NCBI RefSeq assembly: GCF_001425705.1
Contig: NZ_LMDC01000001.1
Coordinates: forward strand, 620,001-684,000
Reading direction: 5' to 3'
DNA from: Pelomonas sp. Root1217
Lineage (GTDB): Bacteria; Pseudomonadota; Gammaproteobacteria; Burkholderiales; Burkholderiaceae_C
Length of the DNA: 64,000 nucleotides
Part shown: positions 40,355 to 44,555 of the stretch, in pieces
Layout: the number at the start of each line of letters is the position of its first letter
Numbering within the stretch: position 1 is the stretch's first letter
Position numbers and translations under genes: made by a program
Notes under the pieces: generated by a model
What the model saw: the letters and a program-made list of their open reading frames with translations, nothing else
Told to the model about the DNA's origin: nothing
Database searches by the model: none

Positions 40355-41656
40355 TCAATGCACCACCGTTTCGCGCAACTCGGGCTGCAGGCTGTCTCGC
40401 CGCGCCAGCGCAGGGAAGATCTTGAACCACAGCGCGACGATGGCCAGCGTGCCGAGGCCGCCGAGCAGCACCGATCCGACCGGGCCCAGCAGGGCCGCCG
40501 TCGCACCAGACTCGAACTCGCCCAACTGGTTGCTCGCGCCGATGAAGACCGAGTTCACGGCGCCGACGCGGCCGCGCATGTCGTCGGGCGTCTCGAGCTG
40601 CACCAGGGACTGGCGGATGACGACACTGAACATGTCGGCCGCACCGCTGACGGCCAGCACGGCGAAGGCGACCAGGAAGGAGGTCGTCAGCGCAAACGCG
40701 ATCACCGTCAGGCCGAACACGGCCACGGCGCCGAGAAGCCAATGGCCGGCTCGGCGCGTGATGGGGTGGCGAGCCAGCCACACGCCGACGGCAACGGCAC
40801 CCAGGGCCGGAGCCGAGCGCAGCAGGCCCAGCCCCTCGGGGCCGGTGTGCAGGATGTCGCGCGCGAAGATGGGCAGCAGGGCCGTGGCACCGCCGAGCAG
40901 CACGGCGAACAGGTCCAGCGAGATCGCACCCAGCACAACGGGCCTCTGCCAGATGAAGCGGATACCGGCCGTCAGCTGCGCCAGCCCGGGAGCCGCGCGT
41001 CGCAACGGCGCGGCACGATGGCGGATCGTCAACACGCCGGCTATCGCCGCGGCGAGCAACAGCAGCGAAACGCCGTAGACGATGGCCGCACCCCAATGCG
41101 CCGCATCACCGCGCGCGGCAGCACCCGTCGCCCAGGGCCCGAGCGCATAGAGCAAGCCGCCCAGGGCCGGGCCGGCAATGATGGCCACCTGCATCGACGA
41201 GCTGGCCGCCGCCACGGCACGGGGCAGCAGGGCAGGGGGTACAAGCGTCGGCATCAAGGCCTGTTGCGACGGCATCTGCAGGGCGCGCGCGCAGCCCAGC
41301 AGCACGGACAGCATCAGGATCATGTTCGGCCCCACCCAGGCGCCGGCGCTGGACAGCGCCAGGCAGGCCGCGGCGACGAGTTGCAGGCCCAGGCTGGCGG
41401 CCAGCAGCAAGCGCCGGTCGTGCTGATCCACGACATGGCCGGCCGGCAAGGTGAGCAGCAAGGCAGGCAGAAATTGTGCAAGGCCGACCAGGCCCAGGTC
41501 CCAGGCGCTGGCGGTGAGGTCATACATCTGCCAGCCCAGGGCCACCATCAGCATCTGGTTGGCCGCGCCGCCGGTCACGCGGGCTCCCAGCAGGCGCATG
41601 TAGTCGCGTTGGTCGCGCAGGCGGCCACGCGGGGCTGGATTCACTTCAAGAGGCAT
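40355..41656 (-). CDS. MFS transporter (EntS-like exporter)
   Basis: A 433-residue 12-helix permease. The order of segments, RVTGGAANQMLMVALGWQMYDLT, GLAQFLPALLLTLPAGHVVDQHDRR, and DDMRGRVGAVNSVFIGASNQLGEFESG (the mid-protein R-G-R-V motif), matches the EntS/enterobactin-exporter-like MFS group. The substrate is not known; no siderophore gene adjoins. The start ATG 41656 faces the radical SAM gene across a 116-base promoter region. Confidence 0.88.
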   Translation of the reverse strand: MPLEVNPAPRGRLRDQRDYMRLLGARVTGGAANQMLMVALGWQMYDLTASAWDLGLVGLAQFLPALLLTLPAGHVVDQHDRRLLLAASLGLQLVAAACLALSSAGAWVGPNMILMLSVLLGCARALQMPSQQALMPTLVPPALLPRAVAAASSSMQVAIIAGPALGGLLYALGPWATGAAARGDAAHWGAAIVYGVSLLLLAAAIAGVLTIRHRAAPLRRAAPGLAQLTAGIRFIWQRPVVLGAISLDLFAVLLGGATALLPIFARDILHTGPEGLGLLRSAPALGAVAVGVWLARHPITRRAGHWLLGAVAVFGLTVIAFALTTSFLVAFAVLAVSGAADMFSVVIRQSLVQLETPDDMRGRVGAVNSVFIGASNQLGEFESGATAALLGPVGSVLLGGLGTLAIVALWFKIFPALARRDSLQPELRETVVH

Positions 41657-41753
41657 GCAGGGACGGAGGCGCTGCCCAAAGGCGTCAAAGCAAAGGGCGA
41701 CGGATTATCCCGGCCCGCTCTCGGTGCGCGTCCTGTCTGGAATGTCGGTTGAA

Positions 41754-41773
41754 TACTGTATATATTTACAGTA
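41754..41773 (+). promoter_or_regulatory. LexA (SOS) box overlapping the radical SAM start codon
   Basis: tactgtatatatttacagta is a 19-of-20 match to the E. coli LexA consensus (one mismatch in the AT spacer), with CTGT-N8-ACAG intact. Its last base is the A of ATG 41773. A TATATT -10-like hexamer lies inside it (41761-41766), so LexA bound here would block polymerase, and a start six or seven bases downstream of that -10 would give a message with almost no leader. The -35 is weak. Confidence 0.85.
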
Positions 41774-42897
41774 TGTCGCCCGCTCCCACCCGCATTGCCG
41801 CCGCCCAGCCGGCCCTCGTCCCGATCGACTCCATCAAGGGCCGCGGCACCGCCACGGCCATGCCGCACCGCTTCGAGCAGCGTGAGCGCGAGCAGTACGA
41901 CGACGGCTGGGGCTCGCTGGACCAGGAGGCCACCGAAGAGCATGTGGCGGTGGCAACGCAGATCATCGAAGAGCATGCGAAGAAGATCGTCACCAGCAAC
42001 CAGTCGCCCGACATCAACTTCGACTATTCGATCAACCCGTATCGGGGCTGCGAGCATGGCTGCATCTACTGTTTTGCCCGCCCCACGCACAGCTATCTGA
42101 ACCTCTCGCCCGGGCTGGACTTCGAGACCCGCATCGTCGCCAAGGTCAACGCCGCGGAGCGCCTGCGCGAGACGCTGGCCGGCGCGAGGTATGTGCCCAA
42201 GTCGCTGGTGCTGGGGACGGCGACGGATGCTTACCAGCCCGTCGAGCGCAAGCTGGGCATCACACGCCGCCTCGTCGAGGTACTGGCCGAATGCAGCCAT
42301 CCGTTCTCGGTCGTGACCAAGTCCAGTGGCATCGAGCGTGATCTGGACCTGATCGCACCGATGGCCGCCCAAGGCCTGGTATCGGTCTATTTGTCGGTGA
42401 CCACGCTGGACAACGATCTCGCCCGCATCCTGGAGCCACGCGCGGCGGCGCCGGCGCGGCGGCTGCGCACCATCCAGGCATTAGCTGAAGCCGGCGTGCC
42501 CGTGGGCGTCAGTGTGTCGCCCATCATTCCCTTCATCAACGAGCCCGAGCTGGAACGCATCCTCGAAGCCGCTGCTGCGGCCGGGGCGAGTTCGGCGTTC
42601 AGCATCCCGGTGCGCCTGCCCTGGGAGGTGAATCCGCTGTTCCAGGACTGGCTGCAGCGCCACTTCCCCGACCGAGCCGATCGTGTCATGGCGCGCATCC
42701 GCGACATGCGCGGCGGCAAGGACAACGATCCTCGCTTCGGCTCCCGCTTCACGGGCGAAGGCGTCTGGGCTCAGCTGCTGCAGGCGCGCTTCCAGCGGGC
42801 CGTCCACAAGCTGGGTCTGCGCAACAAGCGGCGGCCGGTGCAACTGGCGTTGTTCACGCCGCCACGCAAGCCTTCTGCGCAGGGGAGCCTGTTCTAG
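41773..42897 (+). CDS. PA0069-type radical SAM protein under LexA control
   Basis: A 374-residue radical SAM enzyme. The cluster motif is C93-X3-C97-X2-C100 (RGCEHGCIYC); the N-terminal KGRGT and YSINPYRGC parts match the PA0069 group, relatives of spore photoproduct lyase (SplB-like). Other segments are LGTATDAYQPVERKL and SVSPIIPFINEPELE. From memory, PA0069 belongs to the P. aeruginosa LexA regulon, which agrees with the operator. Substrate is unknown; DNA repair is a reasonable but unproved guess. TTG 41749 lies upstream of the box and is less likely than ATG 41773. The stop overlaps eptA tail to tail by 4 bases. Confidence 0.88.
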   Translation: MSPAPTRIAAAQPALVPIDSIKGRGTATAMPHRFEQREREQYDDGWGSLDQEATEEHVAVATQIIEEHAKKIVTSNQSPDINFDYSINPYRGCEHGCIYCFARPTHSYLNLSPGLDFETRIVAKVNAAERLRETLAGARYVPKSLVLGTATDAYQPVERKLGITRRLVEVLAECSHPFSVVTKSSGIERDLDLIAPMAAQGLVSVYLSVTTLDNDLARILEPRAAAPARRLRTIQALAEAGVPVGVSVSPIIPFINEPELERILEAAAAAGASSAFSIPVRLPWEVNPLFQDWLQRHFPDRADRVMARIRDMRGGKDNDPRFGSRFTGEGVWAQLLQARFQRAVHKLGLRNKRRPVQLALFTPPRKPSAQGSLF

Positions 42898-44555
42898 CGT
42901 CGGCAGCCGGCGAGCAAATCCCATTCGGCCTTGTAGATGTCCGACCGAGCGCCCACCCAACCCATCGCGGTATGGAAGAGGTTGTCATGCGAGGCGGGCT
43001 TGTCGCGCAGCCCTTGCAGGCAGCCGGGCTTCAGGGACGCCGCCAACCCGCCGCCCTCGGGCACCCACAGCACCATGGGCACATGCGTCTGCTCGGCCGG
43101 TGCCATGGCATAGGGCATGCCGTGCAGATACAGGCCGTTTTCGCCCAGCGACTCGCCGTGGTCAGAGACGTAGAGCATGCCCACATCGAAAGCCTGTTGC
43201 GCCTGCAGCCAGGCGATGCTGCGCGCCAGCAGCCGGTCGGTCGTCACCAGGGTGTTGTCATAGCCATTGACGACTTGCTCGCGCGGGCACTGCTGGAGCG
43301 CGTTGCTCTTGCACTCGGGCTGGAAGGGCTTGAGGTCGGGCGGTGAACGCTTGAAGTAGGCCGGGCCGTGGCTGCCCATCTGGTGCATGACGAGGACGAG
43401 CCCACGCTTCACACGCGCCGGGTCCAGCGCCGCGATGCGTTTGTCCAACTCATGCAGCAAAGCTTCGTCGAAGCATTCCTCACCATCGCACAGGCCCGCC
43501 GGCAGCGGCGCTGCGCCTTCAGGCAGCTTGGTTGTTGAGCTGTTGGGCACGCGGTCGCAAAGGCCCTTGCAGCCGCTTTGGTTGTCGAGCCACAGCACGG
43601 CCAGGCCGGCGCGTTGCAGCACGTCGAGCAGGTTTTCCTGCGTGCCTTTCACGTCGCCAAAGGCCTCGCGGCCCAGCGGCGAAAACATGCAGGGCAGCGA
43701 TGCCGCGGTAGCCGTGCCGCAGGAAGTGACCTGCCGCAGGGACACGACGGGCAGTTTGGATAACTCTGGATTGGTCGTCCGCGCGTAGCCATTCAGGCTG
43801 AAGTTCATCGAACGCGCCGTCTCGCCGACGACGAGCAGCAGCAGCGGCGGTTTGGTGCCGTCGGCCCGCGGCAGTAGGCGGGCGTCTGCGCCGATGACGG
43901 CGGGCGGCCCGCTGGGTGCGGCCTGGCGGCGCAGCGCGGCACTGCCGATCGAATAGACCGCGTTCAGCGGCGTGACCATGTAGCGGATGGTCTTGTAGTT
44001 GCGCATCGTCGATGACAAGTCGGCAAACACGCTCAATGCCAGCAGCACCATCGCGAGGAGGCCGAGGCCAAAGGCGACGACGTTGCCACCGAGGCGCTTG
44101 GGCAGGGCCTGCCGCGGCGCGGTGGGCCGGCGCAGCAGCCACCAGGCGGGCAAGGCGCCCAGCAGTGCGATGCTGACGAGCAGCCGCCAGCTCAGCAGGT
44201 CGCGCGTCTCGCGCACATCGGTCTGCACCATGTTCGTGACCATGGTGGGGTCGAAGACGATGCCGTAGCTGCCGATGAAGTGGGCCAGCGCGCCGGCGCT
44301 CAGCAGCAGCACGACGAGCAGGCCCTTGATGAAGCGTGGCCAGGCCAGCAGGCTCAGCAGCGCGCCGGTCGCGGCGGTGACCATGCCGGCAAAGGCCAGG
44401 ATGAAGAAGGGGCGCACATCGGCCATGCCGTGCAGCTGTTGCCACAGCGGCCAATTGGCCAGCAACCCCATCCACAGGGCGGCCAGCCAGGCCTGGGTCA
44501 GGGGACGCGAGGTGTCGGGCTGGAACCAGGCCAGCAGGCGCTTGAGCAGGGACAT
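42894..44555 (-). CDS. eptA: Lipid A phosphoethanolamine transferase (EptA/MCR family)
   Basis: Adds phosphoethanolamine from phosphatidylethanolamine to lipid A at the periplasmic face. The 553-residue protein has five N-terminal membrane helices and a periplasmic sulfatase-like domain. The metal and catalytic residues are in place: E245 (VGETAR), nucleophile T281 (SCGTATAASLPC), H396 (MGSHGPAY), D465-H466 (SDHGES) and H478. Several cysteine pairs fit the family disulfides. This is a chromosomal member; polymyxin tolerance would depend on expression. ATG 44555 has a poor ribosome site. Confidence 0.92.
   Translation of the reverse strand: MSLLKRLLAWFQPDTSRPLTQAWLAALWMGLLANWPLWQQLHGMADVRPFFILAFAGMVTAATGALLSLLAWPRFIKGLLVVLLLSAGALAHFIGSYGIVFDPTMVTNMVQTDVRETRDLLSWRLLVSIALLGALPAWWLLRRPTAPRQALPKRLGGNVVAFGLGLLAMVLLALSVFADLSSTMRNYKTIRYMVTPLNAVYSIGSAALRRQAAPSGPPAVIGADARLLPRADGTKPPLLLLVVGETARSMNFSLNGYARTTNPELSKLPVVSLRQVTSCGTATAASLPCMFSPLGREAFGDVKGTQENLLDVLQRAGLAVLWLDNQSGCKGLCDRVPNSSTTKLPEGAAPLPAGLCDGEECFDEALLHELDKRIAALDPARVKRGLVLVMHQMGSHGPAYFKRSPPDLKPFQPECKSNALQQCPREQVVNGYDNTLVTTDRLLARSIAWLQAQQAFDVGMLYVSDHGESLGENGLYLHGMPYAMAPAEQTHVPMVLWVPEGGGLAASLKPGCLQGLRDKPASHDNLFHTAMGWVGARSDIYKAEWDLLAGCRR

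Follow-up and report, generated by a model that had tools for sequence, protein, structure and literature searches.

The window, i.e., the whole 64,000-nucleotide stretch of Pelomonas sp. Root1217 analyzed here, carries on its plus strand an open reading frame of 374 codons for a PA0069 family radical SAM protein (41773..42897), which opens with an ATG at 41773-41775. Its product matched the NCBIfam model NF033668 (rSAM_PA0069) over the entire model (1-348 of 348) at 468.7 bits, against a cut-off of 360. The next best family, Rv2578c (NF038135), has a cut-off of 430, which the match over residues 65-302, at 218.8 bits, did not reach. The codons of the C93-x3-C97-x2-C100 motif, the radical SAM 4Fe-4S motif, lie at 42049..42072 on the plus strand. 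A sequence-only reading had pointed out the length of 374 residues and these three cysteines, and we found the cysteines invariant in all 53 aligned sequences. On the minus strand, a divergent MFS gene (40355-41656) starts 97 bp from the site considered below. An Rfam search of 41400-43000 gave little or no yield, and a tRNA scan returned one tRNA-Leu, far from the site.

Directly at the start codon lies TACTGTATATATTTACAGTA (41754..41773, plus strand), a predicted LexA operator that runs, in the window letters, from T41754 to A41773. It deviates from the E. coli LexA consensus, which we take to be TACTG(TA)5CAGTA, at a single base (box position 13, T instead of A), and its final A is also the first base of the ATG, as the sequence-only reading had described it. 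With up to three mismatches allowed, the 20-base pattern matched the window at this site only (on both strands of one palindrome), and dinucleotide shuffling gave a mean of 0.00 matches over 100 shuffles. At zero mismatches, CTGTATATNNNNACAG is unique to this site across the 6.65 Mb genome. Taken alone, the bare core CTGT-N8-ACAG is not significant, occurring once in the window where 0.56 occurrences are expected, or 8 times against 17.5 expected when one mismatch is allowed. The abundance of the bare core would leave room for a chance palindrome, or for another palindromic regulator with a similar site, a reading that we take up with the comparison of relatives.

A scan of the source genome for the same operator before lexA, recA and the imu genes, as proposed along with the LexA interpretation, found similar sites before lexA (two), recA and imuA. 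Those immediately upstream of lexA, TCCTGGATGAAAATACAGTT and TGCTGGACAAATTTCCAGCC, are both imperfect, one having a mismatch in one arm and the other a mismatch in each arm. The recA site, AGCTGTGGGTTTGTACAGTG, is located ~70 bp upstream of the family match and combines an exact core with weak flanks, while imuA, whose protein scored 186.3 bits to NF033429 (cut-off 150), is preceded by TACTGGATATACATACAGTA. Therefore, lexA and recA of this genome do not carry a different operator motif. Judged by the consensus, the best among the lexA, recA, imuA and radical SAM sites is that of the radical SAM gene. The matrix score likewise favors the window box (37.3 of a maximum of 40.7, with the recA box weak at 11.7) because the scoring matrix was built from other boxes of the PA0069-family radical SAM gene. 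Three marks of a betaproteobacterial-type operator were found, namely a CTGT-N8-ACAG palindrome at the gene start, the same motif before lexA and recA, and conservation in relatives.

Further LexA-like boxes were noted. One lies ~100 bp before mraZ (L003 1499-1518), the gene that normally heads the cell-division cluster. Another, TACTGTTGATTTACACAGTG (L117 1499-1518), adjoins a gene that by eye resembles a GIY-YIG nuclease and gave no Pfam match with 90 residues tried. In the source genome, two good boxes (L009 1499-1518 and L008 1499-1518) have no evident target gene nearby.

To follow the box across relatives, we assembled 191 loci, comprising 80 named relatives, 110 loci from genomes of the genus and family, and the window. 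For the family genomes, the best 90 of 139 matches over the cut-off were read by score, three of which were already in the set or were the window itself. Five loci (L139-L142 and L179) were dropped, either because the motif was not found or because too little upstream sequence was present, which left 186 readable loci, and de-duplication took out six more to give 180 distinct relatives. At a score of at least 0.79, a threshold picked after an earlier result had been seen, the box was present in 156 of the 186 loci before de-duplication, the reversed motif in 1/186 and the box in shuffled sequence in 0/186. By the same threshold, 151 of the 180 distinct relatives carry the box, which, together with the similar sites before lexA, recA and imuA, argues in favor of the LexA operator that the sequence-only reading had proposed.

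The box was missing from 29/180 relatives. GTTC-N7-GTTC, which we take to be the LexA motif of alphaproteobacteria, or its reverse complement occurred in 8 of 24 examined loci (L086, L091, L093, L094, L097, L101, L103 and L104; in L103, 221 bases upstream of the match) and was not found in the remaining 16. Sphingomonas and Sinorhizobium plasmid copies have a motif of this type too, bringing the alphaproteobacterial-type relatives that carry it to ten in all. The Luteimonas, Dyella and two Rhodanobacter loci (L082, L085, L098 and L102) had neither the box nor any of the other motifs tried. The search for other motifs covered the box-free relatives apart from six of the 29 (L043, L120, L193, L226, L227 and L228), among which L193 is cut by a contig end. 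We also observed GAAC-N4-GTTC, presumably the Gram-positive LexA type, in L089. In one genome (G006), where the usual copy is spread across contigs, there is a second, divergent and boxless PA0069-family copy, L120. The tree put the copy labeled Myxococcales (L040) within the Burkholderiales set and the one labeled Mycobacterium (L093), on weak support, close to Azospirillum; wrong binning or naming may be the cause. A class-wide set of 33 loci combined the 30 that scored best for the family with three named plasmid records (two from alphaproteobacteria). Here, 3/33 loci had a box at or above the threshold and 3/33 reached it with the reversed motif, so all that can be read from this set is that the box is no general feature of it; the clear cases are Aeromonas caviae (L235, 0.95) and L266 (0.97).

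These comparisons bear on two other explanations of the site. A chance palindrome, or the site of an unrelated palindromic regulator, is opposed by the absence of the full pattern from the shuffles and its conservation in relatives, on which we rejected it, as well as by the exchange of the motif for the alphaproteobacterial LexA motif in alphaproteobacterial-type relatives; we regard it as very improbable. The box could also serve the divergent MFS gene, or both genes, given that it lies upstream of that gene and only 97 bp from its start. Nevertheless, an MFS homologue occurred upstream of the radical SAM gene in just 5 of 130 surveyed loci, the source genome among them and a few of the loci offering only ~200 upstream bases, whereas the box remains with the radical SAM gene in 151/180 relatives. 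The rarity of the MFS homologue at this locus indicates that the box belongs to the radical SAM gene, and assignment to the MFS gene, which was rejected on the neighbor count, seems hardly credible.

Conservation extends to the position of the box relative to the start codon. Of the 151 relatives with a box, 72 share the register of the window, with the final A of the box opening the ATG; the next commonest in-frame ATG position nearby accounts for 7. At the genus level, CTGT-N8-ACAG-N-ATG stands at the radical SAM gene in 18/20 genomes. The two exceptions have the ATG one base later (L134) or ATT in its place (L138). Close relatives of L138 have ATG there; its ATT either serves as a rare start codon or marks the loss of the start. 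In a quick tree of 110 columns with many forks lacking resolution, 71 of the 72 in-register rows fell in one set of 79 rows with 97% SH-aLRT support, and the register label required nine changes on the tree versus 56.5 in shuffles. Within this set, the rows that depart are L028 (box decayed, no ATG), L134, L188 and L213 (ATG one base later), L138 (ATT), L161 and L164 (ATG at +14), and L193, whose box is cut by the contig end and whose ATG is in register where visible. The 72nd in-register row, L078, is a betaproteobacterial MAG located elsewhere in the tree. Across in-register relatives, the distance from the ATG to the GRG motif varies from 9 to 45 codons, so that the ATG stays with the box and not with the protein N-terminus.

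Several observations agree with a start at the box-end ATG. The family model aligns from residue 22 onward; before that point, apart from this ATG, a single in-frame start was seen, TTG 41749, which is not kept in the close relative L122 and was rejected. A start downstream of the conserved GRG motif was ruled out by comparing ATG/GTG/TTG positions in relatives. Moreover, for 24/72 in-register relatives, the box-end ATG is the sole ATG, GTG or TTG between the upstream stop and the GRG motif.

The same arrangement was seen at other genes. CTGT-N8-ACAG-N-ATG occurs at some gene in 81/150 family genomes (a count not sorted by gene), and the reversed pattern in 12 genomes. A UmuD gene of this genus (L288 position 1501; 147 bits to NF007621, cut-off 110) has a LexA box and ATG in the register of the window. 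In several genomes of the genus, small proteins begin exactly at a LexA box (position 1501 in each case): two of ~150 residues starting MW[LV]D (L275 and L287), one of 101 residues starting MLVEV (L290), and L292, which has a similar start and just 34 codons before a stop. The source genome itself contains two box-headed cassettes (L005 and L006) with proteins that by eye are like the L275/L287 kind. No Pfam match was obtained for L287, L290 or a divergent neighbor. The register is therefore not unique to the radical SAM gene, being shared by UmuD and these small proteins.

We then considered what the register might mean for transcription. A candidate -10 element, TATATT, lies inside the operator (41761..41766, plus strand; box positions 8-13), 17 bp from a candidate -35 element, TGGAAT (41738..41743, plus strand), which matches TTGACA at 3/6 positions and is weak in the window. 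A perfect LexA palindrome has A at box position 13. Because the rows are related, a Fisher test overstates the independence of the contrasts between the 72 in-register relatives and the 79 other boxes, which were as follows: T at box position 13 in 48/72 vs 5/79, T.G 16 bases before the box, at the position of the -35 element, in 38/72 vs 4/79, and both key bases of a -10 at box 8-13 in 48/72 vs 4/79 (TATATT itself in 34/72). The T.G frequency in the register group was 0.53 at -16, 0.19 at -15 and 0.10 at -17, with a background mean of 0.055. Since T at position 13 completes a -10 at box 8-13, 17 bp from the -35, transcription is predicted to start on the A of the ATG (41773..41773, plus strand), which is box position 20. 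Matches of at least four bases to AGGAGG at -18 to -4 were found in 0/72 in-register relatives (matches of three in 3/72), compared with 10/49 relatives whose starts lie 10-60 nt from the box.

Not every in-register relative follows this pattern, T at position 13 being absent in 24/72. By plain match count, an alternative -10 at box 6-11 has at least 4/6 matches in 67/72, versus 53/72 for box 8-13, and would mean a 15-bp spacer and a start a few bases earlier. The box 6-11 hexamer is also found in 52/79 other boxes and is thus not special to the register.

It is also conceivable that the box is a LexA operator of a transcript with a leader, RNA polymerase starting upstream of the box and LexA acting on a conventional or more distant promoter. 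Such a reading agrees with the promoter scan of the window, in which nothing over the box reached the scan threshold and no strong sigma-70 pair appeared, the window -35 being poor. It also agrees with the 79/151 boxed relatives in which the ATG lies away from the box end, and upstream starts may hold for those at 10-60 nt. For the register group, however, it leaves unexplained both the T.G peak at -16 and the prevalence of T at position 13 against the palindrome, and, with no four-base Shine-Dalgarno before the ATG, a longer leader would need a ribosome site within the operator. We consider it unlikely.

A leaderless message is likely, judging by the comparison across relatives. The sequence-only reading had spoken of an almost leaderless message; the fixed -35 spacing, the -10 in the box, the predicted start on the ATG and the lack of a Shine-Dalgarno support this, whereas the promoter of the window misses the scan threshold and another -10 is possible. 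Taken as a whole, the evidence makes it probable that 41754-41773 is a LexA operator repressing the PA0069-family radical SAM gene, and that in this clade operator, -10 and start codon form one fused block.

What the enzyme does was approached through its fold. The AlphaFold model has a pLDDT of 80.1, with residues 1-59 mostly poor, and its top match among solved structures in Foldseek is the spore photoproduct lyase 4fhc (E 7.3e-9, TM 0.55/0.60, rmsd 5.1, 14% identity). The family models of the lyase failed (TIGR04070, 16.2 bits vs 400; TIGR03886, 10.4 vs 437.55), and no gene above the lyase cut-off was present in 299 genomes of the phylum, the source genome included. Of two PDB sequence searches, one was without matches and the other gave weak ones only (SkfB at E 2.6e-4, others >0.05), with no lyase among them. 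An hhalign comparison with L230, a relative of lyase type that scored 281.9 bits and so also missed the cut-off of 400, spanned 100 columns at residues 198-300 only (E 5.1e-6) and did not cover the cysteine region.

The hydrogen-donor cysteine of the solved spore photoproduct lyase is presumably C140. As C93, C97 and C100 are the only invariant cysteines here, this residue has no invariant counterpart. At position 149, which by eye faces C140 of the lyase, the five commonest residues, none of them cysteine, make up 51/53 sequences, and L230 has a cysteine in the segment that by eye faces positions 148-158. We rejected the identification as spore photoproduct lyase on the family scores, far below cut-off, and the lack of a fourth invariant cysteine. 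The earlier designation "photoproduct-lyase-like" holds for the fold and fails for family membership. The enzyme may work like spore photoproduct lyase, but it is not one.

In the mechanism that we propose, LexA of the undamaged cell would sit on the -10 and +1 and exclude RNA polymerase. Upon damage, RecA-driven cleavage of LexA would free the promoter, and transcription would start on, or a few bases from, the A of the ATG, yielding a leaderless or nearly leaderless message whose translation would initiate without a Shine-Dalgarno. As for the product, this radical SAM enzyme, whose fold comes closest to spore photoproduct lyase, would most likely take damaged DNA or nucleotides as substrate, the last step of its chemistry being different. 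A fuller version is offered tentatively, as quite possible yet short of probable: a 22-bp block of LexA operator, -10, +1 and start codon would have a single origin in the clade and have been held in register over ~70 genomes while the N-terminus slid, the SOS message would be truly leaderless, and the enzyme would be a DNA-lesion-reversing radical SAM protein with chemistry unlike that of spore photoproduct lyase.

The link of this type of gene to DNA damage, which the sequence-only reading had proposed, had already been predicted in print. LexA control of splB was predicted in alpha- and betaproteobacteria with different motifs and was, in the available text, not seen in gammaproteobacteria (Sanchez-Alberola et al. 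2012, PMC3323433); the damage link is therefore not new. That splB, a spore photoproduct lyase homologue with two class-specific LexA motifs and with Burkholderia and Variovorax among the betaproteobacteria analyzed, almost certainly belongs to the same gene family as the window gene. Our wider set agrees with the account of gammaproteobacteria in that text, except for Aeromonas caviae and L266. In contrast to our findings, the available text describes no start-codon register, in-box promoter or leaderless mRNA, and the genus of the window is not listed in it (PMC3323433).

Other reports resemble the present case in part. On a plasmid of Acidovorax citrulli, an SOS box extends across the start of umuD, and radical SAM proteins are among the chromosomal genes with SOS boxes (PMC6595937). 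The umuD box is likewise a CTGT-N8-ACAG box over the near-upstream region and the coding start in a betaproteobacterium; it differs in concerning another gene on one plasmid, with neither a clade-wide register nor a promoter or leaderless reading in the available text. SplB (COG1533) is SOS-regulated in several species (PMC8565304), a radical SAM protein belongs to the Gram-positive SOS core (PMC7739468), and SplB-like radical SAM proteins have been linked to SOS operons (PMC3765255). The SOS regulons of Bacteroidetes, Gram-positives and Balneolaeota (PMC8565304, PMC7739468) share with the window a radical SAM protein that LexA is predicted to control, but involve other LexA motifs and lineages, and their available texts mention no start-codon overlap.

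Searches of the open literature, as far as its texts were available, found no case of a leaderless message with LexA. The sequence-only reading had also suggested that the P. aeruginosa homologue PA0069 belongs to the LexA regulon; no paper in the open literature searched treated PA0069 together with LexA, and in the class-wide set the box was the exception. What looks new is the locked, probably leaderless register kept in most members of one clade. Should the proposed reading hold, selection has acted on a repressor site and a leaderless start as a single unit, and a family of radical SAM enzymes would be part of the damage response in a large bacterial group. The relatives with starts at 0, +1 and 10-60 nt also form a natural series for asking how SOS genes are translated under DNA damage. 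A leaderless message beside a repressor site has a precedent in phage lambda, where the cI message from PRM starts at an AUG next to operator sites; there, repressor and gene are different ones, and the operator does not merge with the -10 and the ATG in the way it appears to in the window.
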